The position numbers and the translations under genes are program-made. A DNA stretch of 64,000 nt from Aphrocallistes beatrix (taxonomy: Eukaryota; Porifera; Hexactinellida; Sceptrulophora; Aphrocallistidae), in contig OY725498.1 in NCBI GenBank assembly GCA_963281255.1, forward strand, positions 2,542,001 to 2,606,000, written 5' to 3'. The notes under the pieces are model-generated. The model was not told where the DNA came from. It did no database searches and saw only the letters and a list, made by a program, of their open reading frames with translations. How positions within the stretch are numbered: position 1 is the stretch's first letter; every line of letters begins with the position of its first letter. Positions 11,581-55,402 of the stretch are shown here, in pieces.

Positions 11581-13676
11581 TAGTGACCAACTTTTGAGAT
11601 GACTGTTTCCCTATATTTATTTTCCTCCATAGCGGCTTTTTCGGGAATACCAAAGTACAAGAAGAATAAGTTTTGACGCCATCATATATCTTGACACCAG
11701 TGTATCTTTTAAGGATTAAAAAATTGTTTTTTGTTCTTTTTTAGGATTAAAAATAAATAATTTCGTAGAATAGCAAATCGTCTACTAAAATGTGCTCCGA
11801 ATAAAGTATTAATATTTTTTAATTCTAGAGAGTGAAGGCAATATTTTTTTTACCATGGAAAAGCTTTGAATAGTGATAAAACAATGAAATACGTAAATAA
11901 TGATGTAAATCTAAATACAACTTCAGCGAGATATTAAGAAGTACATACATTGTCCCAAATTCACCTAAAATTAATGTAATTATCTTTCAAAATCTTGCTA
12001 GAAAGAATACGATATAAATAAAACGTTTCAGGCCTATCCATCACGCACTTGGATGAAATACATAACCATAAAGATTATACAAATAGCTAATAAATGATAT
12101 CAACTATGTCTTATATTTACTGTTTTTGTAGATGGATCAACCATTGAGGCGACGGGGCGAGGGGGGTACAAATTACATTTGGTACGTTTAGTATATCGTA
12201 AATCATTTTTCAAATTTATGCAAAATTTATTGAACCTTTCTTACTTTTTTAGATTAACTACTAATTTACAGATTTACCCCCCCCCCCCCCAATGACCTCT
12301 AGGGTCTGGGGTGTGGTGGGGGGGATGATTTACAACGTAAGTGTAGTATATGATCTATCATTCTGATTTGTTTTGCATGATTCAAACGATTTTATTTGTA
12401 TTACTCTCTAGATGTTAATGAATCAATATATCGTCGAGCTGTTGGGTTGTTCTTCGGGCTGAAGCAGAATTTGGATTCATATTCAAATAATACTGGTATT
12501 TTATTTGTACCACAAATTCCCAATTATTAGCCTGAATAGTTAGAAAGTGTCCGATGTTTCATGCAACTCAAACTAATTCCTAACCGTAAGAGACTACATC
12601 TATTACCTCAGCAATAGGTTCTCGTATTTCCGAATCCACCCGAACAAGTAGATCAGATTTTTTAAAATTATTATATCTAAATGTAACTTTTGCTTATATA
12701 TTTCTCTGGCCACAAGTGCATACTCCGAATATTGTCGAATTTCGAGGATTACGTGTATATTAAAAAACCCTCGGAAGAGCCATTGGAAAAAGGTAACTGT
12801 TACTGAATGGGTGAGGAGGAATGTGATGTACCTCTACATAAAAATAAAAATGCTACTATTCCATTTGATTATTTTCCAAATGATTATTTCAGTTGCAAAT
12901 ACAAGGCAGGACACATTTACTCTCTCATATAATGTTTTATTTACAATTATTCTTCGCATAACTTGCACGAGTCATCATTGCACGAGTCCTTGATCAAAGA
13001 AAGCACTCAAATGAAGAATAAGGAGAAGCTCTCTCCCTGGCATCAACAAGCGATGTTTACACTTGGAGACTCCCGCCTAACATGGTGTGTATTCATATTA
13101 TCTTATTTTTATCATGTTGATTATTCGTATGATTGCGAATATATTGATGCTTTAATGATATATTTGTTGTGTTATAGGTGATCTACGTATGATCTTATAG
13201 AGAAGTATAAAAGCACAGTTATTAAGTCGGATCATCATTTTCTCGTCAGGTCAATATCTCGCCAATAAGAAAAGAGAAGTGAACTTATGATTCATCAACT
13301 GTTGTTGAGTACGATGGGTGAGTCTACAATATAATGCTACATATTATTATATTGTGAATTATTTTAGTTAATGGTTTGTAATTAGACGATGAATAACAAA
13401 GGTAGCTACCATTAATCCAACCCTGACACTACCAAAGTCAACAAAATTAGGAGTTAGAGGCAGATCCATTATGAGTAAACAATGCAAAGAAAGACCTCAA
13501 TCCATATTCAGTTAAGTGCCAAGCCATGTATTGCACGCACACTATCTACTAACTGCAACAAGACATCCATTTACCAATTAACCTTCCTCAAATTTCTCAC
13601 AAACACTACTTGCTGTGCAGTAAGGCTATCACATCACAATTGAATGTACACCACCACTTCGTAGCTCTATTTTGCA
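11581..13676. other. Intergenic, no gene recognised
   Basis: This is AT-rich sequence without a convincing coding region. It contains a run of 14 C near 12276-12290 followed by GGGGTGTGGTGGGGGGG (12308-12326). A short open stretch ends in GTGAGT near 13320 and could be a small exon, but nothing supports it further. Confidence 0.4.
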
Positions 13677-13725
13677 TGGAGAGGACCAGGGGGATGGCTA
13701 TTAGGGGAGGAGGAGGCCATCATAG
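13677..13725 (-). repeat. Dispersed copy of the 96-bp minisatellite core
   Basis: On the minus strand this reads GATGGCCTCCTCCTCCCC, then TAGCCATCC and CCTCTCCA, the same core as the tandem units at 1352-1800, as a single copy. Confidence 0.6.
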
Positions 13726-14840
13726 TAAATCCACTTCTCCAAGAGAGGAACGAGAAGCTGGAAGGAAGATTACAGACTCTGCATAGCTTTACTTATATAT
13801 TCACCTCTTTGTATGTATTTTATAATTGTATAATAATTGATTATTATTACGGCACAAAAGTATATATTGTACAGAAACCTCTGGTAATAAGATCAACGCA
13901 CATAGTCAACGCACATAGTCACATGCGATTTGAAGCTAAAAAGTATATACCAGATCGAGTTTTACCAAGAATCGGCATTACATTTATGCAAGGATCCAAT
14001 GTCTACTGTATTCATTCGAAATGGGCTTTATTGGGGAGTCTTGTTTCACAACCATGTGCTCCTGGTTCCATGTTTTTCCAAATTTCCGAGTTGAGGTTGA
14101 AAATTAGAAAACTTGACAATTGATCCAGAATGAAAATCTCCCATTTGAACTTGGTTTACGCCATTTCAATACCTATTTTTAACATATGTGTGTAACTTAA
14201 AATTAAATATTATAAATAGATATGTAGATAGTATATAGTTATAATCTTTCTCTGTCACCAGGATTCAACAATTAGCTAATTCGCTGTATCAATTCGCTAT
14301 GATCCAGACAAGTAAATGAAAGCGATCACTTTATGTCTTGGACACCTGTGACTTGCCTACTTCACCTACAGCAAGAATGTAAGTTTAATTTATTAATAAA
14401 ACTATTGCTATGTGTATTGAAAAAATCCCAAATTCCAATCTTAGAGATAATTGTTTCCACAAATACATTCTGATGTTGCTTTCTAAAATGATTGAATTCT
14501 GTACATGAAAATCACAAAAATCACAATCTTCCCCCCTGCGGCCTCCTGCTGTTGTGATGCAGTTGTATTGTTTTGAGAATTCTCATTTCTAGTGCAGCTC
14601 CTATTATAGGAGATTCTTTATCGTATGGACGGTGTCGAACGCACGTCTGCTTATCATATCATAAAATTTAATCATATTTTCACACCTTTTTATGTAGACG
14701 TGTATTTTCTGCTAGATAAGAAATCTCAACGGCAAATAAGCCTGTATTGTAATTTAGTAAAAGTAGATTTCGATATTCGCACTTGTAAAATGTTGATATC
14801 AAAATTGAACGGTGCAATAGCATACATATATCAATATGTA

Positions 14841-15000
14841 CAGTCAGAGTCGCTTATTATGAACAAATCCTCTGGGTCCCAATTTGACCGGCTCTATAGA
14901 ATTTCTATTATTTCGATTTCGCTACTATGTATGACTCTCTCTCTATTGTGAAAATATTTTGGGCCCCCATGCGGTTCATAATGATATGCGACCCTGACTG
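14841..15000. mobile_element. pogo-like MITE (CAGTCAGAGTCGC)
   Basis: The ends CAGTCAGAGTCGCTTATTAT and its counterpart CAGTCAGGGTCGCATATCAT (reversed) are flanked by TA on each side. The second Mutator-like copy has the same insertion at 52505-52658, so it went in before the unit was copied. Confidence 0.8.
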
Positions 15001-15199
15001 TACTTTTCCAATTTCGAAACTATTATTGACTGTTTTTGTGGTGCTTTTCTATCGGTATGTCGACCATTATTTTTAATATTAGTGACGCAGTTTCAAATTC
15101 CCTGAGCTAGATTGATGCATAGATATTTATTATAGTATAAATGAGCAAACAAGTATATCATACTATTCTAATGGTGGCATGCTACTACAGAAACGATAG

Positions 15200-17587
15200 T
15201 TATACAGCTTCTACACAGGACTCAAATTCCAAGTCACATTTCCTACAGATATAAGGATCATCTCCCACTTCCTTTAGACTGGTATTGACGCATCCACAGT
15301 GAAACCATCTCAGGCAGAACTCACAACCTAACCAGTCATCATTCGCCCTCTTTCCCCCGGTTGGGCAGTCGTGTTGTTCACATTCCTCGCAAACTGTTTC
15401 AGAGTCATCAGGGTTAACACTCGTGGAAGGTAATTCTTTCATGGCAACAGATGAGAGCTCAGTACCAAAACCTCCAGATTTATAGGTCGTAGTATCCTTT
15501 TTACGTCTACGCCTGGAGGATTCGGCTGCAATGAATTGGGATTTGAGAACTCTCCGACGCCTCTTTTGAGTAGCCATAACGGCTTTAAGTTTACAGCGGT
15601 TCCTTTCTTTATCCATCGATGCTAAGTGTTCAAGAGTTATACGGCTACATTGTACATGTTGATCTGACAGAATAGCTGCGAGCATCATTGAACCTTCATT
15701 GAAAGTGCACACAGCAATAGCAGCAGCGGCTTGAAGTGACTTTTGTCCTACACGTTTTGTCTTTGGAGCATTATGCCATACAACTGAATGTAGCGACTCA
15801 TTACAGTTCTGTGTTAATCCCATTGTCAGAGCGGAACACATTTCAATGCTTGCAAATTTCTTGAAAACATCTTCCAGGCGCGAATACTCGTCTTTATTCA
15901 GATAGGGTTGTCGGAGTATGGGAGGTGGATGAGAGGTATTCTCAGCTGAAATTGCGAGGCCCTTTTGAAAGTAACACCAGGATTCTTTTGAGTGTGGGCA
16001 ACGATCGTGCTCCTCGAACAAATGATTCATCAGTGTGTAAAGGGCGTTTTGAATGTCTAGTGGTGTTCTGCCTCTGTTCTTGCCAATAACAAGAGCGTAT
16101 AGATGAGCAATTCTCTCGACTTTTGATGCGGGTATTGGCTTGGAGGGCATTGTTTTCGTAGTTGTCTTCTTTTTGAGGTGTTTCTTTAATCGTTTTTGCG
16201 TGTGCCCAAGACATTCCTCTTTCCGGATAACTTCCATTCCTTTGTAAGGATTATTTTGTTCCAACCTTTTGAAAGAGCTTGAGTCCCCATCTCCCACATA
16301 TGTAGTATAGGCTAGAGAATGCTTGTCAACTGATCTACCCCAGATTTCTATTGCAGCAGAAGATTCCATCGCCTGACTTGTTCCAGAGAAGTTAGCTGGG
16401 CATTCGCTCGAATGTTTCTCCCAGTATTCGCTGTATTCCTCTGGGTTTTCTTTCTTACGTTCTTACGTCCATCTGATACATTTGTTACACACGCGTTCGT
16501 AAAGGACGTAGTCAAGGACTTTCCCCGTTTTGACTTCAATAGCCCCGGCGAATCCTTGATTACTAAAATGTCCGCGTCTGTGCCAAGATCCGTCAAAGCT
16601 CACCGCGCATACCTTGCAACCAGGAATGTTAGATGACTCAGCTTTGGCTCTCACTTCTTTTGCTGTCATGGACATGGATTGCTGGCATATTTTATCTGTA
16701 GAAAGGACCAATTGCGCGAGTAGAGACTTGGACATTCTATGCCAGGTATTTTGTATATCAAGGAGATTGCAGGTCAGTAGAAAATCACTCCAGCTCATGG
16801 AAGTACAGTGTGCTGCTAGTAAAGCTCTAACGTTGACTTCCGACTTTTTCCGGCAAAGCATTTGAGGATCGTTCACGGCTTCATTAGGTTTCATTCCAAC
16901 CGGACGGGATGTGGGAAATTCAGCAAGCACAAGATGGCAGCGACTGCATTTCAACAAGAGATATGATTGTAACCCATCACGAAAAGCGTATTGATACAGA
17001 TTCAAATTACCAGTGCAGTGTGCCTCAGTGCATCTCAATAGAGAAAATACCGTACTCAGTATATCGATATCAATTATTTGCGAGCCATGAGGAACGTAGA
17101 GATCACGAAATGATTGAGCGCCATCCTTCTGTACCATAATACTGAGGCGTTTATTGGGCTGAGGAAACTTCACTTGCTGTAATAGTGTTTTAGATTTCGG
17201 AGTGCTAGTATGAAGGGGTAATCGCTTCGTGGTAGATGGTGTGAAAGTAGATTTTCTTTTGACTCCCTCACCCTTCCGAAACCTCCCAGTGTTGAGTTTA
17301 TGTCCTCGCTGCTTTTTGGTATGAACTGGGGTAGCTGGTGCCGTGTTATCCGATTCTTCGGATGTCTGCGAAGAGAGGGCTACTTGAGAGAGAGTAGATC
17401 CGAGCTCAGTAGGCGTGGATGTAGCTGGTGTTAAATCAGTTGGGGTTGTTGGGACTTTGAATATGAAATCACCTTCATTGTCAGACCCACTTGACTCCAT
17501 GCTAGATTCAAAATCAGCTGGAATGCAAACCTTCGGGAGATCTGCGCTGCGAAATGTAGAAATAGTTTCTTGTTCTGAAGAAGACAT
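15200..17587 (-). CDS. Mutator-like transposase with C-terminal PHD-like finger; one in-frame TAA
   Basis: A single frame of 796 codons, ATG at 17587 to TGA-type end at 15200, is interrupted only by one TAA near 16463. An S/T/P-rich basic N-terminus (~150 residues) precedes a CxxC...KCSRCH zinc-ribbon-like region. The DDE core follows: first Asp in VSFDGSWHRRGH, second in TYVGDGDSSSFK, likely Glu in QNCNESLHSVVW. These motifs are characteristic of the animal Mutator-like transposase domain family. The tail has a PHD-like zinc finger (CEECEQHDC...CEFCLRWFHCGC...YICRKC). Text on both sides of the TAA reads as one conserved domain (VCNKCIRW then KKENPEEYSEYWEKH), with no plausible acceptor for an intron. 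Otherwise the copy looks whole. The same TAA occurs in the second copy (52823-54392). Confidence 0.8.
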
Positions 17588-18013
17588 TTTTTGAATTAGT
17601 TATGACATTAATTATTTCCATACTTATATTGGTTTGGTGTAACAACGTTAAAATTAACTACAGTTGTAGTGCCCATAATTGTTCCACCTCACATGCTAAT
17701 AATAGAACTATGTACGTAGTTTCTTGTATTGTGGTGACAGAATTCTAAATATAGTTAGCCATGTACAGTGTACATGCACATGTTGATATTTTTAGAATTT
17801 TTCCAATTATGGATGGTGTTTGCATTTCTCAATTCTTACTAAGCTAAATTCCAATTGCACTTGGTTGTATCGTGCTTACATATCTACTGTTATGTGTGCA
17901 TTGCTATTGTGACATATTGTTGTCTGGGATGGAAAATGGAGCCTTGAATGGGGCACCTCCCAATAACGCGCACCCTTATGTGGTCTGTAAAGAAACTTTT
18001 TGTTCGCATAAAA

Positions 18014-18213
18014 CAGTGGTTCCCAACCCCTTTTACCTCGTGCACCTCCTGACACCTAAAAATTATTTTGTGCACCCCAGGACCTATGCCAGGATCTAGG
18101 AGTAAGTGCATATAACTTCAAAAATAATTCTGTTAAAAATGCTCAATATTCAGTTCTAATCCTTGTCCCGTGCACCGCTAGGGAGTTCATGCACCCCAGT
18201 TTGGGAACCGCTG
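18014..18213. mobile_element. hAT MITE, 200 bp
   Basis: The TIRs CAGTGGTTCCCAACCCC and CAGCGGTTCCCAAACTGGG (reversed) are flanked by a perfect 8-bp duplication GCATAAAA (18006-18013, 18214-18221). It lies between the two ORFs of the Mutator-like unit, in the part lost from the second copy. Confidence 0.9.
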
Positions 18214-19323
18214 GCATAAAATATGTTGAAAGTACTCTTAGAGTCCAAACACCATCAAGGAAATTTATCTATCTATTTTTGTTTATTATATTTGTAAACG
18301 CATAAATTTGTAGCCATTTGTGGTCTAGTGACTTTTGATAATTGTTTGGGGAAATGAGCACGGTTGGACATGTTCAGCATGCTTTTTGTGGTGATTATGT
18401 AGACCAAAAGGGGATGAATTTGAAATAGACGACATTTATTCTGAGAAAGTCTCTCGACCCTGTGCCTGTGGATCAAAACAAATTATTGCAATCTTGCAAT
18501 TTGGACGAAATACCCTATTCACAAATCATTGTCAAATTTAGACCGAGCGGAGTCGCAAGAAGGATCACTCGATAGGGTTCAAACAAGTTTTAAGAATGGA
18601 ATGTTGTTACATTCCTATGCTGCTATGATGTTGCTAGAGGGCTAAGTTTGCCGAATAAGACGACTTGTATTCAAAGTCATTTGTCGCATTTGTGGCTGCA
18701 AATATCTGATGGATCTACTCTAGGTGTCCGAATAAACTGACCCCCGCTTATTAATTAATGTTTTTTTCTAGCCCCCCTCCCCCATTTATTAAATCTCGTA
18801 AATTGACTTTGAAAGTTTTACCCAAAAATGGTTTTTATCGCATGTAGTATTTCATCAATTATCTTCTATCTGCAATCAATAGAATATTTTATTTCTTATT
18901 CTAGATAATATGTTGAGTACTTTATTACTGTGTGATACATCAACTAATTTCAAATCAACCCTCCCGTATAACCAACCACTCGAGTATACTTACAAGCTCC
19001 TCTCAAAAATGTTCTAGATTTAAAATGCGAATTCCATGGAAAATCCAGGGAAATTAGTGATGTCTTGTATACTCAGGTCTGTGCATGCCACTTGCGCCAG
19101 GCCGGACTCCAGCACTCATTTTAGAACTGTGCTACAATATTACATAGGATCATACGTAGATCCAATATAATAATATATGAAGCAGACAAATGGTATTATG
19201 TACGTCTAGTGATATCATTACTAATTTATCAGCAAGTACTTTATTATAATAATAGTTATACTATGTACTAATAGTTGTAAAGTAATAGCAATGAATCACA
19301 TGATTGTTACATACATACAAAAT

Positions 19324-19833
19324 CTACTCCAAGTAAGTGAGTATCTCTAATTGTGGATAGTCGAGCATTATATCTGCTGGCAAATACTGTTGCTTGAATT
19401 TTTCTTCTCTTTGCTCGAATGTTAGCTTCGGTGGATTCCACCGGAAAGCTTTACCATATTGGTTAACATGCTCTTTGTATGCATGAAACTGGTCACAACC
19501 AAATTCTTGCATGAATTGTTCATCAGTGTAGGACGCGAAGATGTCCAGCCAATAATCAGAATGATGGCGTCTACGACGGATATGGGTAGTCAATGTATTT
19601 CGTTCTGTTCGGAATGTAAGCTGGAGCTGTTTACTCTCGCCTCCACTCCAGATGTGTTCGATGACGTCTCTGCACAAGTGAATATTCTTTTGGCCGGCTC
19701 TCTTCTCAATTATTATGTTCTGATTGCACTCCCCAATTCGCAACTTTCCTGGCACAAACTGGATACCATCACTAGGGAAGATATTACATGCACGTTGATG
19801 TGTACTCATTTTTCCCAACATTTTATTAGACAT
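19324..19833 (-). CDS. Unrecognised 169-residue ORF of the Mutator-like unit
   Basis: This complete ATG-to-stop frame lies upstream of the transposase on the same strand, about 1.7 kb before its start. It is rich in charged and aromatic residues, with a basic HIRRRRHHSDYW patch, a DYWLDIFASYTDEQFMQEFG segment, and FRWNPPKLTFEQREEKFKQQ near the end. There is no signal peptide, membrane segment or zinc motif. I do not recognise the family. Only the first codons (MLGKMSTYQRA in that copy) survive in the shortened second copy, where the deletion joins them out of frame to the transposase. It could be an accessory protein of the element, an exon of a longer transposase transcript, or a captured host fragment. 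Confidence 0.55.
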   Translation of the reverse strand: MSNKMLGKMSTHQRACNIFPSDGIQFVPGKLRIGECNQNIIIEKRAGQKNIHLCRDVIEHIWSGGESKQLQLTFRTERNTLTTHIRRRRHHSDYWLDIFASYTDEQFMQEFGCDQFHAYKEHVNQYGKAFRWNPPKLTFEQREEKFKQQYLPADIMLDYPQLEILTYLE

Positions 19834-20123
19834 TTTCAGATGTATTTTGTAGAATGACTTGTATTATTTTACTTCTTCTGGATATAATTTGAGCAAATTT
19901 TTTGTATTTATATCTATTTAATAGCTATCCATTTGCAGTTGTAATTGTACGTTGTGTGTCTGTGTATGAGTGTTGCTAAATTTAGACATGTTCTATTGAT
20001 GTAATATATCTATTTTTAGACTAAACTAGCGCTTGTTATTAATTTCAATGCGTATAATGCCTAAAACGTAGCAACCTGTTTGAAGGTTTAGGACTTGATG
20101 GCTTGCATTTTAACTTACAGAAA

Positions 20124-20300
20124 CACAGGCGCGCTTCGCTTGCTTGCGGACACTTTGTGTTCGCCAGACGCGCCATTTGGGCGCCTGGGCTCACACTGGT
20201 TAATTATAAGGTTGATAATCACTCTAATCATGTCTGTCTTACTGTTATAATCTACATCACTGGAAAAATCACCAAATTGTCAATTTTATTTGAAATCTGA
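20124..20300 (-). repeat. Helitron-like 3'-end relative inside the Mutator unit
   Basis: The block reads GGCGCGCTTCGCTTGCTTGC, then GGACACTTTGTG, GGGCGCCTGGGCTCACACTGG and TTAATTATAAGG, the order seen in the 3' region of the Helitron-like family (reverse orientation), but shorter and diverged. It stops after the CACCAAATTGTCAATTTT text. The same block is at 54710-54881. Confidence 0.6.
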
Positions 20301-20391
20301 GTCACTAATTTATGGAACTTGCCGGAAACTTTCCGGAATTCTAATTGTAATTGCCTAATTTACGGAATACTCCATTCCAGATTATCTCAGT

Positions 20392-20617
20392 CAGGGCTGT
20401 ATCAACCCAGTTGGCAAAAACAAGTCATTTTTCATGGAAATTCCTTGCCCACAACTCATTCAACACTTTCAAAAAATGAGTTGTCTACAGCCCACTCATT
20501 TTCAGAATGATTCATTTGTACTAAATGAACTTGTTTCAACAATTCATTTTCATATGACGGCTATAATCAACTCATTGATATGATTTTGCCAACTCAAAAT
20601 GGGTTGATGCAGCCCTG
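20392..20617. mobile_element. MITE with CAGGGCTGTATCAACCCA ends (hAT-like)
   Basis: TIRs CAGGGCTGTATCAACCCA and CAGGGCTGCATCAACCCA (reversed) enclose AACTCATT/AATGAGTT palindromic words. The flanks ATCTCAGT and ACCTCAGT agree at 7 of 8 positions, suggesting an 8-bp duplication of hAT type. The equivalent insertion is at 54944-55165. Confidence 0.7.
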
Positions 20618-20821
20618 ACCTCAGTAACCAAACTTGGTGGAACCGATCAGGAATTTTCGGAGGATTAGTTACATTTCTACTATTAAGTTCCAATTTATAC
20701 ATACATACGGACGAGATACTTCCTCCATTTTATAAGATCATCTCCCTACTGGTGCTGCACTCAAATTGTATTACGTATATTCATACTTTCTTCAAATGTC
20801 CAATTTTAGATATAAAACGAT

Positions 20822-22259
20822 AGTTTTACAATATTAGAATGCTTCTCAGTAATATTCATAAACTATCTATTGCGTTCCTATATACACTTCACTTTTCTGA
20901 GAATTGCTGATGATATTTCCTATATTATCTCATCACCTGGAAGGAAGGGCTAGACCACACATGTCGATGCAATTGTAGGCTCAAGCAATGAATATAAATA
21001 ACAATATCTGCCCTATTATTTATCAGTCGTAACTTGCAAATCGCAAATCATACTGGGAACACGCAACTCCTGGGGTCTTCGCTCATCTGTGGAGGCAGGC
21101 CTAACTTGCGCACAAATTTATGGATGGTAGTATATACTTCTGGGCATGTTGATTTACACCTACTATTGTTTTATTCTCAGCCTTCAATGACCTAAATTGG
21201 CTGAGTGTACAAAACTGAAATTTCTAATTATATAGTAGACGTGGCAATGACGTCTCAATCTCGTGGTCTTTCAACATTTTCGTCTTTGGTGTCTGAACTC
21301 AATGGAACCATACCTTAAACTATGGATAACAATATTCGCATTAGAAGTTTGTATTCACTTTTTACTGATTTTAATTGTACCATGGATCAGAATGTAAGAG
21401 TCCGAAAAATTTGTGGTAAATGCTTACATGTTTATTTTTCACAATTCTGACTTTTTCGTGCAGAATAATTAGTTGAAAAGTTTGAAATTTTCAGATATAA
21501 TAACATATTGGATTGATTATTGAACCGCAATGTATATATATATTTCAATCAATTCCAAAATTGATCATAATGAATTTAGATTGTGAATATAAATTTAATA
21601 TTGTTTTGAACCATGGATAAATGACTTAGTGTTGTATGCGGTCTTCACTTATAGTTAAAATGACAATCCTCACAAACTTTTATAATTTCGTTCTCAGAAT
21701 TTGTTCATTCTATAAGCTTTATGTTACCATAATATAAGCTCTAAGCCTAATGCTTTAAATATTACCGTACAGATTTTCAAATTGATTACCCTCTTCAAAG
21801 TTTTAGATGAATACGTCAAAAAAAAGTCAAAAAATATACTAAATTTTGAATAAATTCAGTAAATCAGGTGGCAATGTAAAAATTTGCACTTTTTAACGAA
21901 AAACGCTCGGTCGAAATTAAGGATATAAATCAATTAAGAGATATCCGATGTCAAATGAAGTTTCTTAAGATACCAAATAGTTGAATTCGAGGAAAGTTGA
22001 AGTATTATTACCTATAGCAACGGAGATTTTGAATTTTAAAAAATACATCGGGTTCAAATAGTGGTGTCACTGATGTTAGACGCTCATTTTAACTATTTTG
22101 ATATACCCGAGTTGACATATATCACAGTTTATGATAATAATTGAGCACAAACCACTTTTCCATTCATACGTAATACAATGGATGTATACGGAAGCGTTAA
22201 GTAATATAAAAAATGACCGTCGGATTCATTAATTCATCAAATTACCTCTTCTGAGAAAC
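20822..22259. other. Intergenic, no gene recognised
   Basis: This is AT-rich sequence with no supported ORF, TIR or repeat family. The missing left end of the Ginger fossil that follows might be expected here, but the TGTTGCGTGA terminus was not found. Confidence 0.35.
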
Positions 22260-24564
22260 TTTCTTGTCATATTGCCTATTCTACTTCAACTGCTCTGTAC
22301 GAATATTTTCACCGGCTAGCTCAAAAGTGTCAGTTCTGAATTGCTCTAAAATTTTAATGGACTCTTGTAGTTGTTCCTGGGGTGGAAAGATAGTGTCAGG
22401 TAAATCTCCTTCTTCAACTATAACATTAAGGGAGAGAATGGCTTCCTCCATATTCATGTCATCTTCTGCAGAAACTGATATTTTGTTGATAGTTGGAACA
22501 AGGTCCTCGAATCTGGAATTTCTTCCCCACATTATTCTGTATGGCATATTCCCGTGTGATTTCTTATGGTAAGAATTCATACAGATGAGAGCTGATTTGA
22601 GTGGTTGCGACCAAGTACTAGAATGTTGGGATTGAACAACCATTTTATTCAATTTCCTATTTACAATGTACATATTAATATTTTAAATATTTTACTCGAA
22701 ATTAATCAGCGAAGCCACGCTCATAATTAAGAACCCCGAATTCACTAAATTAAACTCTTACGTACGCCTTTAGGACTTTGTTATGTGCCTCAACTAATCC
22801 GTTAACCATCGGGTGATAGGCACGAGAACTCCGATTTTGGATGCCCAACTTAAGAGCAAACTCCTGAAATGCCTAGAAATTTTAGCAAATTCGATAATAC
22901 GAGTATTTAGAAGAAATTATTTTCAGATAAATATTACCTTGGAGGTGAATTCCTTTCTCTGATCATGCTGTATGATATCTGGCAATCAGAATTCTAGGTA
23001 TATATCCTCCAACTGTCTGATCACTTCATTGGTTGTCTCGTCCTGAGCGGTCTTGTAACAACAAACTTAGATAGGTAGCACACCGTCACTAGCACATGCA
23101 TGTAACCATCCGGATTCTCAGGGAGATCCATCAAGTCCATTCCGATGTGTTTCCAAGGTATGTCTGGAGGTGAAATTGGCCTGAACTTCCTCTGATGCTG
23201 CTGAGGTAGAGGTGCATCACTTTGGCAACCGTTACAAGATTTGACCTAGACACAAACTAATTATTTAACAACATAGTTGAACAGTCGGATGTTTACGATG
23301 GAGGGCCGGGAGTATAATGAGTGTTTGGGCTATCACTTCGCTAGGGGTTAATGGGAATCAATGGAGTGGATACCCACTACCAATGACACGTGACCAGGTT
23401 ATAGGATGGGCAGTTAAATAAATAGTTTCTTGATTAATCTCCACATAAAAATATAATGGGGCATTAATTTATTAAATAATAATATTGTACTTACGTATTT
23501 CTTAACGTCTGGACACAATCCACCCCATGTGAAACGTTGCTGGATTTCATGTATTCTGGAATTCATTTCAGGGTGACCCAATTCATTGTGATACTTTCTG
23601 ATGATATCTTTTAATCCTTCTCGAAGAGGAACTTGAAGATTCAACTCTTCTCAACTCTGGCCGCACTGAGATACTTTCTAAGTGCAAAATGTAATGATTA
23701 GCCGGACATACCAAATTTACGGAACGGAACAATTCCGGGAAATATGAGTACCTAATTTACGGATCTTGACGGAACGGTTCCGGAATTTTAAATCTCTATT
23801 TTACTGACTATTCCATTCCGGATATTACAAAACCTAATTTACCGAATGTCCCGTAAATTAGGTATGTCCTGATTAGAAACTAAACAATAATTTAGGCAAA
23901 ATAATTTTTCTCGATCACAACTGGACTATGGCTAGAATCGAAAAGAAATACCTTGCAGGTCCGGGTATGGTACTTACACGACTAAAGTTTAGTCTCAGTA
24001 CAGGCACTGCAAGTTTATTTTCGTTCCAGTTCCGGTGCTGTAGATACCTAAACAAACATGAATCATATTTTACACATACATAATTTAACAAATTCCACCT
24101 CTAAATTGTGTGCAACAATAAGCAACTGCTTATTGATGCCCATAGGATGTTTGGCTTGTTCGCCTTGCTGGGACCTGTGAACTACGTTGGGACTAATAAA
24201 GGAAGAAATAATTCAAAACTTACTTTATAAAGTCTCTTTGATTCTGTTTCGGAGAGAGTATAATTCTCAATCTTCCTTTTGAAATTCCACAGGTGTCGTG
24301 GAGAGATTTTGGTTGCATGGATGTCTACCTTTGTCAAGAAATTCAAAGATTTCTTTGAACTATTGAGGATTCATCCAAATTGCAGAAAATAATATCAATC
24401 AACGATACGAAGACTGTAAAATACAAATTATGCAATATTTTTCAAATAAGGTATTAATATAAGAAGCGACAATCTAAATAAGATACATGAAAACAAACCA
24501 CAAGTTAATTAGAGAATTTAAACCCAAATCTCAAGATATTACGATCTCAAGATATCACGCAACA
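22260..24564 (-). mobile_element. Second Ginger-type fossil
   Basis: The right end at 24564 reads, on the minus strand, TGTTGCGTGATATCTTGAGA, the same start as the TIR of the first Ginger element. The matching left end was not found. Minus-strand coding remnants lie in family order: an N-terminal piece near 24222-24360 (LWNFKRKIENYTLSETES), a zinc-binding H2C2 piece at 23494-23643 (YHNELGHPEMNSRIHEIQQR), and core pieces at 22938-23247 (GMDLM, QHDQ) and 22760-22875 (AYHPMVNGLVEAHNK). A C-terminal piece lies at 22281-22673. Introns separate these pieces, at positions matching the first element where both can be seen. The fossil has several breaks and looks old. Confidence 0.75.
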
Positions 24565-27185: not shown

Positions 27186-29828
27186 TCAGGTAAGATAAAT
27201 CTTGTGCCAATCATTGTTCCCAAAGTTTGCATTGCACTTAGGGCATTTCCTCTGACGTGTTTCATAACGCATTTTGATGCATTCTCCACAAAACACATGA
27301 AAACACTTTGTAAGTATATGATCTTTCTTACGTTGACTACAACATGGGCAAGTCAATTCTGCCTTGTAGGATTTGACTTCTTCCAACAATATTTCATCAG
27401 TAAAAGAATGTTGCTGTTTCTTCAGTTTATCTAGTTTCCTACGCTGAATAGAAAATTCTTCTTGAATTCGTCGAGATTTTTGCACTTCAAGCTCATATTC
27501 AACAGTTTTGGAGAGCAGTGCTTTTTCGACAACATTCAACTGATGAAGGGATTCTTCAAGTTTGAATTTATTATCTTGTAGATCTTGCGTACTTTCCTGA
27601 GATTTCTTTTTAATATTTTCCACAAATTGCTCTTTTAGATCAGTTTCTTTTTCGAGATTGATTATTGAAAGTTCACTTTTTTTTTCTCTGTTGTCTAAAC
27701 GACTAGCTACCTCACGCAAAGAGGCCCCTTCTAATCCCAATACTTTAGTTTGTTTCTGAAAAACTTCACGTTCTTCGTTCATTCGCTTTTGCAATTGATT
27801 TAATTTGATCCGTTCAGTCATGAGCTTAAAATTTGCATCATCCTTCTCTTTTATTTGTTTAAGCAGGGTAGAAACTCGTTCTTGCTCATCCTCATAAGCT
27901 TGGCCCGTGACATCCATTTCTTTCATGAATAAATCTTGCTCTTGTTTTCTTGATTGTAGTTGCTGTCTAAGATAACCGATTTCTTCTTTCAAAGGAAGCA
28001 TTCTAGACTGCAATCTTTGTTCATAATCATCTCGTCTCTTAAACAATTCACGAGTCTTTTCATCTAATTGTCGCTTCAAATCGAGTATTTCAACACTGGG
28101 TCCTGGTTTACGATTATCTTTAACTTCTCCTTCTTCTTCCTCTAAATCTTTGAGTTTATTTTTTAAATCATGAATAATATCTTTCAATTGACAAATTTCT
28201 TTTTGATTAGATGCGATTCTTGTTTCATATTTGTCTTTTTCATTTGTTTTATCTTCCTGGAGGCAATCTGCAAGATTTTGAGATTCAGTAGCCAGGTTAC
28301 GATATCTATTAAGATCGTGTTTTACTTGCCGAAGATTATTACGTAGAGAGCAAATAGTAGCTTCAAGTTCTTTATTAGAGAGTACTGCTTGTTCATAAAT
28401 CGAATTACGTCCATCAAAATCGAGACGTAGAGAATCGCATTCCCGACGAGATAACAAAAGGTCCTGTTCTAACCTAGAGATTTCATCTAGGGCCTCTCTT
28501 TTGAGACGGGTTTGTATGTCTAGTATATCACTAAGCTGTGAAGTATATTGTTGTTTACAAGTCTTGAGTATCTTTCTCAGTTCCTCACATTGGTTTTTCA
28601 GGTGAAGATTATTGGCACATACTAGGGTATATTGAGTTTGGAGAGATCTATAGAAAGGTGTTAGTTTTACATCAATATTTTGTCCAAGTTTCCCATCGAG
28701 CTTACGTGTTTCCAATTCAGTCTTAATATTACACAACATTTTTTCTAATTCTTCAACCTCTTGCAATCGCGTTTGAGCCAAGAAATGCCACTCTTCTTGT
28801 TCTTCTCTTTTTTTCGTCTGTATTTCTTCACAAGTACTGGATCTGGATGGAGGAGTAAACGAGTCTAAATCCTTTTGAATTGCAAAAGTATTATCTACTT
28901 CAACATCTCTGTCTATTAATTGAGGAGTTAGAATAGTAGAGAGTCTATGCTCTAACTTGCAAATTTTATTATGACCACGTTCTAAATCGAAATTGGCATC
29001 ATCTAAAAAATCCTTATATTCACTAAGCTGATCTGTTGTATTGTTCAGTTGAAGCTGCAATACAAGGCTCTTCTCTTCTGCACAACTCGCATCATTGTAT
29101 AGAGTTTGTATCTGAGTTAGGAGCCGATTATTCTCTTGCTGCAATCCTAAAATTTCCTTCTTTAAATATGATATAGAATCAATAGTAGGTGAGGAATCCC
29201 CTAATGCAAGTGTAATAGTTTGGAAAGCTTGTCGCTGACGAGTAAATAATTGGAGTAATTGATTTACAAAATCGCGAGACAACTTTGAAGCAAATTTCAA
29301 ATCATCTTCAATATTTTCATAAGAGAAACCAACATTGGATCTGAAAAAAGTTAAATTTTGAGAAACATTTCGGATTGAATTGCAAAATTCATCATCGGAA
29401 GCGTTTTCCTCCTGTATAGAAGAAATAGTAGACGGTAAACGAGTAGAATCAGAAAATGCATTTAGCAGTGATGTCAGATCAGAATTAAAAGAATTCCAGA
29501 CAGTTTTTATATAATTGTAGTTGTTGTCATAAAGTGCTCTCTTCTGGGAAATAATATTACGTTCGGAATTAAACAATTCATCTTTCAAAGCATATTCTCT
29601 GAGTCTTTGCATAAGCATCTGATTTTGCAGCAAAAGTGTTTTTTTATCCAAATCTTCTTCAGAAGCTACATTTGATATACCAAAATTATCACTCAATTGC
29701 ATTTTCTTAATCGTTTGAACACTAAGAGCATTAGTAGGAGCATGTGATTCATCAAAAATTGTTTGGGAACGAGTGTCCTCTCGATGTGATCGCTTTATTC
29801 CAATAAATGGTTCATTAGTAGAGGCCAT
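27186..29828 (-). CDS. BRE1: E3 ubiquitin-protein ligase BRE1 (RNF20/RNF40 type), no introns
   Basis: BRE1 pairs with the E2 RAD6 in the nucleus to mono-ubiquitinate histone H2B, a mark tied to transcription elongation. The frame reads 880 residues from the Met at 29828; an in-frame Met 11 codons earlier (29861) would add a hydrophobic MIDCAVLFLIY and is less likely. The N-terminus has a basic stretch (GIKRSHRED), then SEEDLDKKTLLLQNQMLMQRL as in the conserved BRE1 start. Long coiled coils fill most of the protein. The last 54 residues are a C3HC4 RING: CPCCSQRKKD, TKCFHVFCGECIK, RQRKCPKCNANFG, ending HKIYLT. The RING is nearly identical to the animal family; the middle is strongly diverged. 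Length is close to the usual ~950-1000. Animal RNF20/40 genes normally have many introns; this one has none. The other strand shows only shadow frames. Confidence 0.93.
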   Translation of the reverse strand: MASTNEPFIGIKRSHREDTRSQTIFDESHAPTNALSVQTIKKMQLSDNFGISNVASEEDLDKKTLLLQNQMLMQRLREYALKDELFNSERNIISQKRALYDNNYNYIKTVWNSFNSDLTSLLNAFSDSTRLPSTISSIQEENASDDEFCNSIRNVSQNLTFFRSNVGFSYENIEDDLKFASKLSRDFVNQLLQLFTRQRQAFQTITLALGDSSPTIDSISYLKKEILGLQQENNRLLTQIQTLYNDASCAEEKSLVLQLQLNNTTDQLSEYKDFLDDANFDLERGHNKICKLEHRLSTILTPQLIDRDVEVDNTFAIQKDLDSFTPPSRSSTCEEIQTKKREEQEEWHFLAQTRLQEVEELEKMLCNIKTELETRKLDGKLGQNIDVKLTPFYRSLQTQYTLVCANNLHLKNQCEELRKILKTCKQQYTSQLSDILDIQTRLKREALDEISRLEQDLLLSRRECDSLRLDFDGRNSIYEQAVLSNKELEATICSLRNNLRQVKHDLNRYRNLATESQNLADCLQEDKTNEKDKYETRIASNQKEICQLKDIIHDLKNKLKDLEEEEGEVKDNRKPGPSVEILDLKRQLDEKTRELFKRRDDYEQRLQSRMLPLKEEIGYLRQQLQSRKQEQDLFMKEMDVTGQAYEDEQERVSTLLKQIKEKDDANFKLMTERIKLNQLQKRMNEEREVFQKQTKVLGLEGASLREVASRLDNREKKSELSIINLEKETDLKEQFVENIKKKSQESTQDLQDNKFKLEESLHQLNVVEKALLSKTVEYELEVQKSRRIQEEFSIQRRKLDKLKKQQHSFTDEILLEEVKSYKAELTCPCCSQRKKDHILTKCFHVFCGECIKMRYETRQRKCPKCNANFGNNDWHKIYLT

Positions 29829-30109
29829 ATAAATTAAAAATAAAACAGCACAATCTATCATATTACAAAAGGTGCTAGATTAGTTGTCATCCAGGTAGTT
29901 CTACTCAACCAAGGGTCGTATAAGTTCCCATTATTGTAGAGAGAAAATTTGAAAGGTATACTATATGAGTTTTGAAATAGATCAACTTGAAACGACTTTG
30001 TGAAACAAGATGCAAGTGGCGGTTTCTACAGGATATTTTCCAAGTTATCACAATACGGTTATTACTTATACGTATAATATACTTTGTCAAAACTTTAAAT
30101 TTCGTTTTT

Positions 30110-34232: not shown

Positions 34233-34690
34233 CTAAATAGCTATAAAGAGGTAAGTACAGGGTGGCCGAACGAAATTAAGCTCGTCGAATTTTGCTCTCC
34301 AGGTCCTGCGAATTCTTTGGTGGCCTACGGTACACCTCCTGCTCCAGCATACCCCATGTACCGTAGTCAAGGGGATTGAGATCAGGGTAGTTTGGCGGCC
34401 AATCTTCTTTCGTCCAAAATCGATATTTTCCGTCCTCAAAGATTCTGCGACTCTGGTTGCCGTATGGCAAGGGGCGGAGTCCTGTTGGAAAACGAGGTTG
34501 TGCTGACGACAAAGGGGAACGACAAAAGGAGCTAAAATTGCACTTTGGTAACGATCCGCATTCACAGTCTCTCCTTGCCTGAAGAAAACCAGATCATTTT
34601 TTAGGTTATAGGCTACCCCTGCCCAGACCATGAGTTTTCGACTAAATTTATTCTTTTCCACGATCGTTTTCTTATTCAGAGGCTTCAGCG
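34233..34690 (-). pseudogene. Tc1/mariner-superfamily transposase C-terminal half, frameshifted
   Basis: The minus strand reads KLMVWAGVAYNLKNDLVFFR, GETVNADRY, and the catalytic LVFQQDSAPCHTATRVAESL. After a frame change near 34410 it goes on as WTKEDWPPNYPDLNPLDYGT and YRRPPKNSQDLESKIRRA. QQDSAPCHTA and YPDLNPLDY are the second and third catalytic-motif regions of the Tc1/mariner group, here with Asp in the third. The N-terminal half is missing because a Helitron-like 3' end begins at about 34690. Confidence 0.8.
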
Positions 34691-35026
34691 CAAGCAAGCG
34701 AAGCGCGCTTGTATATATATAAACATTAATCGAGTTTTAATAGTAAAGATAATCTATTAAAATTTCAGCCTTCTATCTCCTATAATGGCTGAGTTATGCT
34801 CGAATAACTGTATTGCTTAAATTTAAAAATGTTACAATGATGCCATAATTCCATGATGAGTTGACATTTTCTTCTGAGCTCAGAGCTTACTGGAGTCTTA
34901 GCCAGAAAACTCATACATGCCAAAAATCAGGTTTATGGGTCTGACAGTTACTTCATTCAATTCGTTACAGATATATACTATATATCCTTACTATTAAAAC
35001 TCGATAAATGTATATTCATTTATTCA
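34690..35026. mobile_element. Composite of Helitron-like ends and body
   Basis: In order: a plus-strand 3' end CAAGCGAAGCGCGCTTG (to 34711); a TA tract and an inverted 5' end (34712-34749, ATTAATCGAGTTTTAATAG); a minus-strand body fragment (34751-34970); and a plus-strand 5' end TCCTTACTATTAAAACTCGA at 34985. At least three partial copies meet within 340 bases. Confidence 0.65.
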
Positions 35027-49488: not shown

Positions 49489-50100
49489 CTAATCAAAGCA
49501 TTTAACTGAGATTGGGATATCTGAAAACTATATCTAAATTCCCCTGATGTGAATTGTTTTAATTTATCATTCTAGTTTAGTGAAGACCTACACGACAATT
49601 TTTAATTAACGCTCCCGTATACTACTATTATTTGTATAATAAGATTTTTTTCAAATTTTCAAGTTTATTTTCTTTTTCAGGAAGGTTAGAAAAGGAGTCC
49701 TTAAGGATTTACAAGGGGTTTGGAGTTAAATCTTCATTATATTTATACTGATAATTAATGAAAAGATCATTCAGATACAGAATCGGGAAATATAATCTAA
49801 GTCATTTATCCATGGTCCAATGACGAATGATGATAAAGTAAATACTTTCCAAAGCCAATTGTTCTTATCCATGGTCCAAAATGCTTCACATGTGAGAGAT
49901 CAATATTATTTCTAACCAATTGATTGTAGATTATTTGGCTTTGAGACGGCAATGATATATGTAGACCATTTATTTATACATCTGATATCTGCATTTTGGA
50001 TGAATCGGAGCTCCCTGTACTGTTTAGAGGGAAACTGTACTCCAAGTCTGGTCTAGTAGTAACTAACATTGATACCGTAATTGAAATTTATGTTCCTTTC
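49489..50100. other. Intergenic, no gene recognised
   Basis: AT-rich sequence without supported ORFs, TIRs or known repeats. Confidence 0.35.
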
Positions 50101-50344
50101 ATTTGGAAGTACAGTGGGACTGAGAAAATGTGACTGCAGCACGTCCCCCTCTGTCTGCAGGACGCACTCCAGCCGTGCGAAACTCTCCGGCCAAACCGGA
50201 CAGATACACAACTAGCCACTTGGGGTATTCACAGCCCCCGATGTTTATAACCCCATACCTTCAACTCCACAAGGGAATTTCTTCCACCAAAATTATTCGC
50301 CTCCCCATGGAGCTTCTCACACCCTCCCAATGGTCAAGTGATTA

Positions 50345-50835
50345 ATTACTTTTGATAGAAGTTTTTTGACTAATAACAAATGGAGAAACCAGTCCACCGC
50401 CTGGAGCAAGTCTCGGAGGAGAGGGGGCGAGGGGGTCGGGGTTGGGGGTATGGGGAGTGACACTCTGGTACTCAGCTCTGATCAGCCGAACCCATTCTGA
50501 ATCATCTGTGAATATGACGAAGTTGACGAAGGCAGGAGATACGGGAACTGAGTCGTTAGGAGAAAGTTGAGCTGTGCGTTGTGGCGGTGCAGCTTCTCTA
50601 GGTCGGAGAGAAGATCTGAAGTTGCAATGAAGGAGGTAGCTAGAGTTACGAGCTTACTGCTACTGCCATTCAGAAGGCAGTCAGGATGCAGGTAAAAGGT
50701 GTTGTAGTTAGATGGTAGGGAATGCAGAATTAGGTTCAGAGATCGCTGTGGATCTCTCTTACCAAAACATGTAAATATATAATATAAGGCAAGAACAAAT
50801 ATAAAATATTTCAAATATTTTCTTAGCCTCACCAC
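50345..50835 (-). CDS. Possible exon(s) of an unknown type II membrane protein
   Basis: The minus strand is open from a TTAG acceptor-like site near 50836. It begins with a basic then hydrophobic stretch (RLRKYLKYFIFVLALYYIFT), a likely signal anchor. A polar region with HPDCLLNGSSSKLVTLATSF and LLSDLEKLHRHNAQLNF follows, ending at a stop at 50482. A second overlapping frame is open from about 50640 to 50345 and reads FVNFVIFTDDSEWVRLIRAE then a Pro-rich tail, so a frame change or splice may join them. There is no ATG at the start, so this would be an internal exon. The topology suits a Golgi enzyme, but I recognise no catalytic motif. Base composition is less AT-rich than the surroundings. 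Confidence 0.35.
50423..50455 (+). other. G-quadruplex-type G-run cluster
   Basis: Five runs of four or five G separated by one to three bases (GGGGGCGAGGGGGTCGGGG, then TTGGGGGTATGGGG) satisfy the intramolecular G-quadruplex pattern. They lie just past the first stop of the minus-strand membrane-protein frame. Confidence 0.7.
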
Positions 50836-51014
50836 TAATTTTAATTAGTATACTTCTCTTGGATCAAGACAGTGCATATCCTCGGTTATCCGAACACTTT
50901 GGTTCCTTGGAAAGTTACTATTTATTAAAACTATTAGAAACGAGTGTTCGGTTGATAGAAATTTATTTGCTTGCTATTCTGTATTACTTAAGTAAATATT
51001 TATTTTTTATCTAG

Positions 51015-51184
51015 AAACAAATTCTTGAGTTTGGGGCGGGGACAGCCGTGGAGATGGCGGCGACGGCGGCTGCGGCGTTAGAGGCTGCGGCGGAGGCAAG
51101 GGCAGCTGCGGAGGCGGCGACCAAGGCGGCGTTAGAGGCGAGGGCGTTAGAGGCGGGGGCAGAGGGGAGGAGGAAGGGAAGAAT
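51015..51184 (+). CDS. Possible Ala/Glu-rich exon, or GC-rich minisatellite
   Basis: Between TTTTTTATCTAG and GTGAGT, both good splice-site matches, a 170-base segment is open in frame and reads AAALEAAAEARAAAEAATKA with ALEARALEAGAEGRRKGR, a sequence favouring a helix or coiled coil. It is strongly GC-rich in an AT-rich region and built from GGCGTTAGAGGCG-like words, so all frames tend to be open. Coding status is therefore unproven. Confidence 0.3.
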
Positions 51185-51331
51185 GTGAGTTTTTAATTTT
51201 CTAAATTAAGCAATAAATTTTATATTTTCCTGCAACTCCTAGTATAGTAGTTGTCGTGATCTATATGGAACGTCGTACTTCACTCGTTATTGGAAATTAT
51301 ATTGAAATAATTTGGACCAATTTGGGCCATA

Positions 51332-51504
51332 TACACTAAGCGGACAAAAGTATTTCAACACTTGATTCTTTCCCATACAAATAATGCTAAAATGTGTCTA
51401 TTCATGAAGACGGTTACTTCTAAACGGTATGGGATATAGCTAATTGGATTCCAGATTCGAATAATACGCATTCAAATTAGTCACAAATTAATTTTTCTAA
51501 TTAA
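51332..51504. mobile_element. T1 MITE left half
   Basis: Starts CACTAAGCGGACAAAAGTATTTCAACAC after TA and follows the T1 consensus to about 51500, where the Mutator-like unit begins. The right half is not found beyond the unit. Confidence 0.65.
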
Positions 51505-52504
51505 TATATTGTACAGAAACCTCTGGTATTAAGATCCCATTAAATGTAAACCCACATACGCACATGCGATTTGAGGCTACAAAGTATATACCAGATCGAG
51601 TTTTACCAAGAATCGGCATTACATTTATACAAGGATCCAATGTCTACTGTATTCATTCGAAATGGGCTTTATTGGGGAGTCTTGTTTCACAACCATGTGC
51701 TCCTGGTTCCATGTTTTTCCAAATTTCCGAGTTGAGGTTGAGTTGAAGTTGAAAATTAGAAAACTTGACAATTGATCCAGAATGTAAATTCTCCCATTTG
51801 AACTTGGTTTACGCCATTTCAATGCCTATTTTTAACATATGTGCGTAACTTAAAATTGTATATTTTCTGTATATACACATAAATAGATATGTAGATAGTA
51901 TATAGATATAATCTTTCTCTGTCACCAGGATTCAACAATTAGCTAATTTGCTGTATCAAATTGCTATGATCCAGACAACTAAATGAAAGCGATCACTTTA
52001 TGTCTTGGACACCTGTGACTTTCCTACTTCACCTACTAGCAAGAATTGCTATGTGTACTGAAAAAAATCCAAAATTCCAATGTTAGGACAAATTCAAATC
52101 TGAAAGATAGTCGTTTCCACAAATACATTCTGATGCTACTTTCTAAAAAGATTGAATTCTGCACAAGAAAATCACAAAAATCACAATCTTCCCCCCTGCG
52201 GCCTCCTGCTGTTGTGATGCGCTTGTATTGGTTTGAGAATTCTCACTTCTAGTGCAGCTCCTATTATAGGAGATTCTTTTTTGTATGGACGGTGTCGAAC
52301 GCACGTCTGCGTGATCTTGGAAAACTATTATCATAAAATTTAATCATATTTTCACACCTTTTTATGTAGACATATATTTTCCGCTAGAAAAAAAATCTCA
52401 ACGCTAATAAGCCTATATGTAATTTAGTACAAGTAGATTTCGATATTCGCAAATTGTTGATATCAAAATTGAATGGTGTAATAACATACATATATCAATA
52501 TGTA

Positions 52505-52658
52505 CAGTCAGGGTCGCTTATTATGAACAAATCCTCAGGTTTGACCGGTTCTATATAATTTCTATTATTTCGATTTCGCTTACTATGTATGACTCTCTCT
52601 CTATTGTGAAAATATTTTGGGTCCCCATGCGGTTCATAATGATATGCGACCCTGACTG
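52505..52658. mobile_element. pogo-like MITE, orthologous insertion
   Basis: Same element and same place as 14841-15000, flanked by TA; it lacks a few internal bases. It predates the copying of the Mutator-like unit. Confidence 0.8.
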
Positions 52659-52822
52659 TATTTTTCCAATTTCGATACTATTATTGACTGTTTTTGTGAT
52701 GCTTTTCTATCGGTATGTCGACCGATATTTTTAATATTAGTGACACAGTTTCAAATTCCCTGGGCTATATTGATGCATATATATTTATTATAGTATAAAT
52801 GAGCAAACAAGTATATCATATA

Positions 52823-54392: not shown

Positions 54393-54709
54393 GCACGTTG
54401 ATATGTACTCATTTTTCCCAACATTTTATTAGACAATTTAGATTTATTTTGTAGAATGACTTTTATTATTTTACTTTGAGCACATTTATTGTATTTATCT
54501 CTATTTAATAGCTATCCATTTGCAGTTGCAATTGTATGTTTGTGTGTCTGTGTATGAGTGTGGCTAAATTTAGACATGTTCTATAGATGTAATATATCTA
54601 TTTTTAGACTAAACTAAGTTTGTTATTAATTTCAATGCGTATAATGCCTAAAACGTAGCAACCGGTTTAAAGGTTTAGAACTTAATGGCTTGCATTTTAA
54701 CTTACAGAA

Positions 54710-54881
54710 ACACAAGCGTGCTTCGTTTGCTTGCGGACACTTTGTGTTCGCCAGACGCGCCATTTGGGTACCTGGGCTCACACTGGTTAAGGTAAATAAT
54801 CACTCTAAACATGTCTGTCTTACTCTTATAATCTATATCACTAGAAAAATCATCAAATTATCAATTTTATTTGAAATCTGA
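54710..54881 (-). repeat. Helitron-like 3'-end relative in the second Mutator unit
   Basis: Equivalent of 20124-20300 (GCGTGCTTCGTTTGCTTGC, GGACACTTTGTGTTCGCC), with small losses in the GTTAATTATAAGG part. Confidence 0.55.
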
Positions 54882-54943
54882 GTCCATAATTTATGGAACT
54901 TGACGGAAACTTTACGGAGGACTCCATTCCAGATTTTCTCAGT

Positions 54944-55165
54944 CAGGGCTGTATCAACCCAGTTGGCAAAAACAAGTCATTTTTCATGGAAATTCCTTGA
55001 CCACAACTCATTCACCTCAAAAAATGAGTTGTCTACAGCCCACTCATTTTCGGAATTATGCATTTGTACTAAATGAACTGGTTTCAACAATTCATTTTCA
55101 TATGACTGCTATAATCAACTCATTGATATGATTTTGCCAACTCAAAATGGGTTGATACAGCCCTG
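54944..55165. mobile_element. CAGGGCTG MITE, orthologous insertion
   Basis: Same element and position as 20392-20617, slightly shorter, with CTCAGT before and ACCTCAGT after. Confidence 0.7.
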
Positions 55166-55402
55166 ACCTCAGTAACCAAACTTGGTGGAACCGATCCGGA
55201 AATTACGGATGATTAATTATATTTCTACTATTAAGTTCCAATTTATACATACATACGGGCGAGATACCTCCTCTATGCTATAAGATCATCTCCCTAGTGG
55301 TGCTGCACTGAAATTGTATTACGTATATTCATACTTTTCTTCCAATGTCCAATTTTAGATATAAAACGATTGTACTTGAGTAATATTTGCGATTATGATT
55401 TA

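Follow-up and report, generated by a model that had tools for sequence, protein, structure and literature searches.

A probable TTAA-inserting cut-and-paste transposon with Kolobok-like and Rehavkus-like features and an upstream accessory gene in the hexactinellid sponge Aphrocallistes beatrix

The genome of the hexactinellid sponge Aphrocallistes beatrix (assembly GCA_963281255.1) contains a repeated element that we describe here from a stretch of 64,000 nucleotides on contig OY725498.1 (C12:2542001-2606000), referred to below as the window and numbered from its first base. The minus strand of a single repeated unit holds two open reading frames (ORFs), one for a transposase and one for an accessory protein of 169 residues. 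We consider it likely that the element is a TTAA-inserting cut-and-paste transposon of the DDE (Asp-Asp-Glu) type, Kolobok-like with Rehavkus-like additions, which carries its own accessory gene upstream of the transposase and on the same strand. An earlier reading of the sequence alone had proposed a two-gene unit belonging to the animal Mutator-like group. The two-gene organisation is confirmed, as the pair recurs in all 20 copies that were fetched and at 47 of 60 close transposase places. The assignment to the Mutator-like group could not be upheld, given a TTAA duplication instead of the 8-11 bp of Mutator-like elements (MULEs) and zinc-finger motifs of the Kolobok kind (PMC6446971, PMC9587614).

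Results

The genome searched comprises 100.5 Mb in 28 contigs. With window positions 15000-17000 as the query, 43 matches at 95-100% identity were obtained within the best 40 of 158 genome candidates, and the best matches were fetched with their flanks as 20 copies (L009-L028), a choice that favours complete copies. By blastn, 11 of these match the window up to position 22200 or a few bases past it, and the remaining nine stop before it, because the fetched stretch runs out or because the copy is truncated. Because the flanks of the 11 copies part company at 22200, after ...AGCGTTAA, we take this position as the terminus of the element. Its last four bases (22197-22200) are TTAA, and the adjoining right terminal inverted repeat (TIR; 22184-22196) reads CGCTTCCGTATAC on the minus strand. 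A 20-base pattern from this end occurs at 55 places in the genome with at most one mismatch, and the left-end 20-mer TTAACGCTCCCGTATACTAC (the counterpart with CGCTCCCGTATAC) at 54 places with at most two; the two lists overlap in one place, and the ends could be paired into 14 elements of 9,287-13,636 bp. The inverted repeat CGCTYCCGTATAC stands next to the TTAA at the element ends, and comparison on the complete copy L012 gives a TIR proper of 13 bp with one mismatch.

TTAA flanks every one of the 14 paired elements on both sides, and a script that looked further out for duplications of 5-12 bp detected none. Searches for empty sites covered three of the 14 and returned homologues at two. 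The L012 element sits, as judged by eye, inside a mariner-like transposase; when its flanks are joined with one TTAA, homologues on C9 and C4 align along all 224 bases at 94%, the query overlap of the insertion's own two flanks is exactly TTAA, and the C9 homologue carries a single TTAA. The second insertion, on C17, has an empty-site homologue running across the junction (89 of 89 bases at 98%). The paired ends, together with the empty homologues found for two of the three insertions searched, demonstrate that TTAA is the target duplication of the element.

The transposase occupies 15200-17587 on the minus strand, where 795 codons and a terminal stop form a single frame; in this copy the frame is interrupted once, by an in-frame stop at 16465-16463. 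A division into two separate ORFs and an intron were both rejected in favour of a single frame with one internal stop. An open transposase frame, 799 codons from stop to stop, was found at three places among the best 106 of 386 candidates, and in three copies the transposase and accessory frames are both open, which, together with copies up to 99-100% identical, points to recent transposition. Residues 176-538 of the open L009 transposase match PF20700 ('Mutator', E 6e-52). A match to this 'Mutator-like transposase' family, taken alone, is not known to separate MuDR from Kolobok. The transposase of the window likewise matches PF20700 and not the PF13843 (DDE_Tnp_1_7) of piggyBac.

From its motifs, the transposase has a predicted first catalytic Asp at residue 332 (FDGSW; 16592-16594), a second at residue 433 or 435 within GDGD at 432-435 (16283-16291) and a last catalytic Glu at residue 597 (NES; 15797-15799). 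The first Asp is followed by a putative CCHC zinc finger formed by C367, C370, H392 and C396 (CNKC..H..C; 16400-16489), a criterion taken from PMC9587614. The C/DxxH motif is represented by CLGH at 459-462 (16202-16213), and between it and the last Glu lies a zinc-finger-like HDRCP..SWC at 527-538 (15974-16009). At the C-terminus, a PHD finger (733-784; 15236-15391) has the full C4HC3 ligand set and matches PDB chains of KDM5B (E 2e-4) and BPTF (E 2e-3); two PRDM9 chains ranked above these by summing weak repeats, none of them individually significant. The PHD-like finger noted earlier is thus borne out by its ligands and by the KDM5B and BPTF matches, although its Pfam score of 18-19 bits falls under the cut-off of 24. 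Judged by its likeness to the KDM5B and BPTF chains, it would probably anchor the transposase on the tails of histone H3. Downstream of the transposase, near the left end of the element, a minisatellite of about 27 bp was present in 11 of the 20 fetched loci, some loci ending earlier; it was found neither in the window's own copy nor in a second copy within the window.

The accessory gene lies at 19324-19833 on the minus strand. A translated search matched its protein to 132 stretches of the genome. The sequence-only reading would have been abandoned by its own terms had this ORF been absent from other full-length copies; the gene was found, complete or in pieces, in all 20 fetched copies, and its frame is open along the full length in eight of the nine copies examined. 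At the 60 transposase places with at least 84% identity, the accessory gene lies 0.8-8 kb upstream on the same strand in 47 cases, upstream on the other strand in two, downstream on the other strand in one and downstream on the same strand in none. These counts used 92 of 111 transposase matches and 101 of 132 accessory matches, with second or short pieces of the same copy omitted.

Selection on the accessory gene was assessed in 12 ungapped copies, 11 of them distinct, consisting of the window and 11 of the 20 loci; the window and L009 are identical over this gene, and shifted, gapped or truncated sequences were omitted. The pooled ratio of non-synonymous to synonymous polymorphism per site (pN/pS) was 0.21. 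Variants seen once among the 12 copies gave 0.57 (7 synonymous, 17 non-synonymous), and variants present in at least two copies gave 0.15 (13 synonymous and 8 non-synonymous over 97 and 410 sites; binomial p 2e-5 with variants treated as independent). For the transposase, pN/pS was 0.56 over four copies of very low divergence. We conclude that the accessory gene is under purifying selection and is a selected gene of the element, and this, with its 132 genomic matches, marks it as more than a chance ORF. As the shared variants are mostly older than the insertion, we infer that the constraint acted on transposing copies.

The protein resisted assignment in the sequence-only reading and did so again in our searches. 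Nine accessory members, six of them near-identical, gave no significant family in Pfam up to E 10; the best matches were DUF5662 and three others at E 0.007-0.12, and the three with known cut-offs score under them. In the PDB, the accessory profile and two single proteins returned nothing significant, the best match (E 0.16) being taken as chance. Pfam includes a P2X7-tail family, which was not among the matches of the nine members up to E 10, and no P2X7 chain was matched in the PDB up to E 10 by the profile or by the two single proteins. The accessory alignment contains no invariant cysteine. No relative of this alignment or of the C-terminal half of the transposase came up in searches of viral contigs.

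By identity rather than by a tree, the accessory matches in the genome fall into three lineages, each of which stands beside a transposase at an examined place, and no host gene was identified among the matches listed. At L051 (C20), an accessory gene 42% identical over 92 residues lies upstream of a decayed, divergent transposase in the same order and on the same strand, the main transposase pieces being 43-65% identical to those of the window; one more accessory place of this type is found on C15. The L049-type accessory, about 35% identical, occurs at nine places, five of them head-to-head with a piggyBac transposase (PF13843 in L049, E 6e-20), and it is present at five of the six piggyBac places with at least 80% identity; beside more distant piggyBac places none was seen among the matches listed. 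These pairings were judged by eye from match lists. Two of the five, L049 (C4:4112500-4119500) and C4:4144703-4151635, are 100% identical inverted copies of piggyBac plus accessory about 30 kb apart, which may have arisen by inverted duplication not long ago or through the assembly, so that the number of independent pairings is lower by one. The left end of the piggyBac element was not reached, its similarity extending to the edge of the fetched stretch.

When the L049 stretch was aligned with the window by blastn, the accessory gene gave no match, and for this reason we rejected the idea that it came with a piggyBac element nested here recently. The absence of a DNA match and the protein match of about 35% instead indicate that the sharing with piggyBac is old. 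The sequence-only reading had named a match to a different transposon as grounds against itself, and such a match was indeed obtained: relatives lie beside piggyBac, alike at the protein level.

As to the extent of the element, the body common to other copies runs from 13862 to 22200 on the minus strand, by blastn of the 20 fetched copies and comparison of their flanks. The sequence-only reading had placed the unit at 13863..20821; the repeated unit is real, but its true right end is 22200, and the left limit is a breakpoint. Position 13862 was rejected as a terminus because 14 of the 20 copies extend beyond it into sequence that the window lacks; three (L013, L014 and L022) continue as the window does, and three start later. 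Window positions 11940-13861 form an alternative left arm common to L013, L014 and L022 and not to the other fetched copies, and no TIR was found in this arm, which continues in L045-L047, to mark the left end of the window copy. The second copy in the window (49606-55373, minus strand) has its left TTAA and TIR at 49606. It shares the extent 13862-20824, with 20821 being the point at which its match ends, and an internal deletion equivalent to about 16735-19786 has left it with a remnant of the accessory gene and a transposase lacking its N-terminal part; its match ends at 55373, with no right end seen there.

Some further observations concern the element's surroundings and distribution. On C14 (C14:2285045 / C14:2288618), about 3.6 kb separate a 48%-identical transposase from a left-end-like TTAACGCTGCCGTTTACTAC downstream of it, so distant families may have kept TTAA-CGCT ends; a second transposase piece (68%) is nearby, so the site is possibly the end of another element. 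Contig C2 (7.6 Mb) carries, between about 2.3 and 6.8 Mb, 48 of the 92 typed transposase places and 56 of the 101 accessory places, a clustering that suggests a repeat-rich or sex-linked chromosome. Just outside the element, a minus-strand ORF of 130 residues (22281-22673) appears by eye to be a retroelement integrase remnant, and a minus-strand mariner-like transposase fragment was likewise recognised by eye at 34233-34697; neither has a Pfam match at E 0.01. The window also encodes a BRE1 (RNF20/40) homologue in a single frame of 891 residues with a C-terminal RING finger (27186-29861, minus strand). It matches BRE1A and BRE1B PDB chains at E 6.7e-82 and 8e-81, and a 75-residue BRE1A chain at E 5e-34 compared with E 3e-11 for a 69-residue chain named BRE1. 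If the latter chain is taken to be fungal, this difference by itself makes an animal host probable.

Discussion

In the mechanism that we propose, the DDE transposase, whose catalysis is predicted from motifs, would cut and paste the element at TTAA, and the accessory protein would work with it in a step common to TTAA elements, such as recognition of the target or of the ends, or resealing after excision. Such a role in a TTAA-specific step is a serious possibility that stops somewhat short of probable, and we favour it because an accessory homologue adjoins a piggyBac transposase, so that different transposases with a common TTAA target keep the same companion. Regulation of the transposase, or some other function, seems to us an unlikely role. 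Going further, and with clearly less confidence, one may picture a lineage in which Kolobok-type catalysis and CG..CG ends of its own are combined with a body of the Rehavkus type (PHD finger and 3' minisatellite) and with an accessory family common with piggyBac that would act in the shared TTAA step. It is part of this joint reading, and equally tentative, that the accessory protein represents a previously undescribed family.

Several observations weigh against this interpretation of the element and its accessory gene. A control frame of 75 codons without known role is open in nine of nine copies, so that at such similarity open accessory frames are weak evidence. In a second transposase group (60-78% identical), the accessory gene lies upstream on the same strand at three of 28 places and downstream on the same strand at four, which amounts to no pairing; a 3-kb stretch searched upstream of one open member of this group gave no accessory gene, and at transposase places below 60% identity it accompanies none of four. 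The accessory gene is therefore not required by every relative. L051 is one decayed copy. Among the piggyBac places, one of the six close ones is without the accessory gene, and four of the nine accessory places of this lineage are without a close piggyBac match nearby. Comparison of the L049 and L050 accessory genes indicates no constraint (pN/pS 1.48), and that of L049 with a piece in L052, which has stops and a shifted stretch, gives a ratio of about 0.5. Single-sequence structure prediction of the accessory protein was poor, with a mean predicted local distance difference test score (pLDDT) of 42.8, and the third empty-site search found no spanning homologue.

For Rehavkus, a PHD finger and a minisatellite preceding the 3' end are given as features (PMC6446971), and both were found here, the minisatellite of about 27 bp in 11 of 20 loci. 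With the Pfam domain name 'Mutator', they would suit a Rehavkus element or another MULE whose TTAA ends follow incidentally from a single family's choice of target. However, target duplications measure 8-11 bp in MULEs and 9 bp in Rehavkus (PMC6446971), and neither was observed, the duplication here being TTAA; in addition, the element has a zinc-finger motif between the second and third catalytic residues, which is described as absent from MuDR (PMC9587614). We regard it as unlikely that the element belongs to Rehavkus or the other MULEs. With respect to the accessory protein, a divergent form of KolX has to be considered. KolX, the accessory protein of Kol0, has seven conserved Cys and similarity to the cytoplasmic ballast of P2X7, and its C-terminal part occurs in some piggyBac families without most of the cysteines (PMC9587614). 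This published outline, common to Kolobok and piggyBac, fits the present case, as does the lack of an invariant cysteine in our alignment, yet neither a P2X7 chain in the PDB nor the P2X7-tail family in Pfam was matched up to E 10. We regard a divergent KolX as unlikely, although a distant relation may exist.

MULE accessory proteins include one with anti-silencing function, from the Arabidopsis Hiun element (PMC6446971), and the accessory protein could be an anti-silencing or regulatory factor of this kind. The copies are numerous and similar, and a portable anti-silencer would also fit the sharing with piggyBac; nevertheless, a TTAA step accounts more readily for its presence in two TTAA superfamilies, and we hold the anti-silencing function to be possible without favouring it. 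Finally, the ORF might be a captured host gene or a chance passenger with no role in transposition, a view favoured by the failure to find it upstream of 25 of the 28 second-group transposase places. The purifying selection, the gene order kept in L051 and the occurrence of all three accessory lineages beside a transposase at an examined place, with no host gene identified among the matches listed, speak against such an origin and make it very unlikely.

If the proposed TTAA-step function is correct, a helper common to a Kolobok-like element and piggyBac, and selected in one of them, points to a step beyond the transposase alone. Since Kolobok and piggyBac have different transposases and the same TTAA target, a common helper would make this step testable by removal of a single gene. 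The separation of Rehavkus from Kolobok that their duplication lengths suggest is also put to the test by the element, which suggests in addition that the Pfam label 'Mutator' can mislead the annotation of elements.

Among known systems, the element has in common with Kolobok (Kol0 and KolobokE/P/D/H) the TTAA duplication seen in 14 of 14 elements, short TIRs, the C/DxxH motif with a predicted zinc finger before the Glu, and the predicted CCHC finger (PMC9587614). According to Kojima and Bao, almost all Kolobok transposases, but not those of MuDR, have a zinc finger placed after C/DxxH and before the last Glu, and a CCHC finger following the first Asp is seen in KolobokP, E, D and 5 and in a few solitary families (PMC9587614); in the present transposase, the predicted CLGH, HDRCP..SWC and E597 follow one another in this order. 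Several Kolobok lineages have an accessory protein, as here (PMC9587614), but ours had no significant Pfam or PDB match and so could not be identified with the lambda-exonuclease-like, RecQ, His-Me, DEDDh or KolX proteins. Kolobok termini are RR..YY, whereas those found here are CG..CG in 14 of 14 elements, and the C-terminal PHD finger and 3' minisatellite are terms that do not occur in the main text of PMC9587614.

With Rehavkus, which is grouped with MuDR, the element has in common the PHD finger of the transposase and the minisatellite before the 3' end (PMC6446971), as well as a similar length, Rehavkus-1_TC being 9.5 kb (PMC10218199). Rehavkus differs in its 9-bp duplication, one ORF and TIR of 26-400 bp (PMC6446971), as opposed to TTAA, two ORFs and a 13-bp TIR here. 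The animal MULEs Phantom, Ghost and Spectre also have a DDE transposase, some with two ORFs, and differ in their duplication of 8-11 bp and in SWIM, FLYWCH and C2H2 zinc fingers (PMC6446971); C/DxxH is given for MuDR as well (PMC9587614). Because the Kolobok description fails on the ends and that of Rehavkus and the MULEs on the duplication, we describe the element as Kolobok-like with Rehavkus-like additions but assign it to neither group; in the open-access literature we recognised no description of such a combination. The L049-type piggyBac elements found in this genome differ in their PF13843 transposase and head-to-head gene order, and their TTAA ends were not located; nonetheless they carry the accessory homologue of about 35% identity, and piggyBac, like the element described here, duplicates TTAA (PMC9587614).

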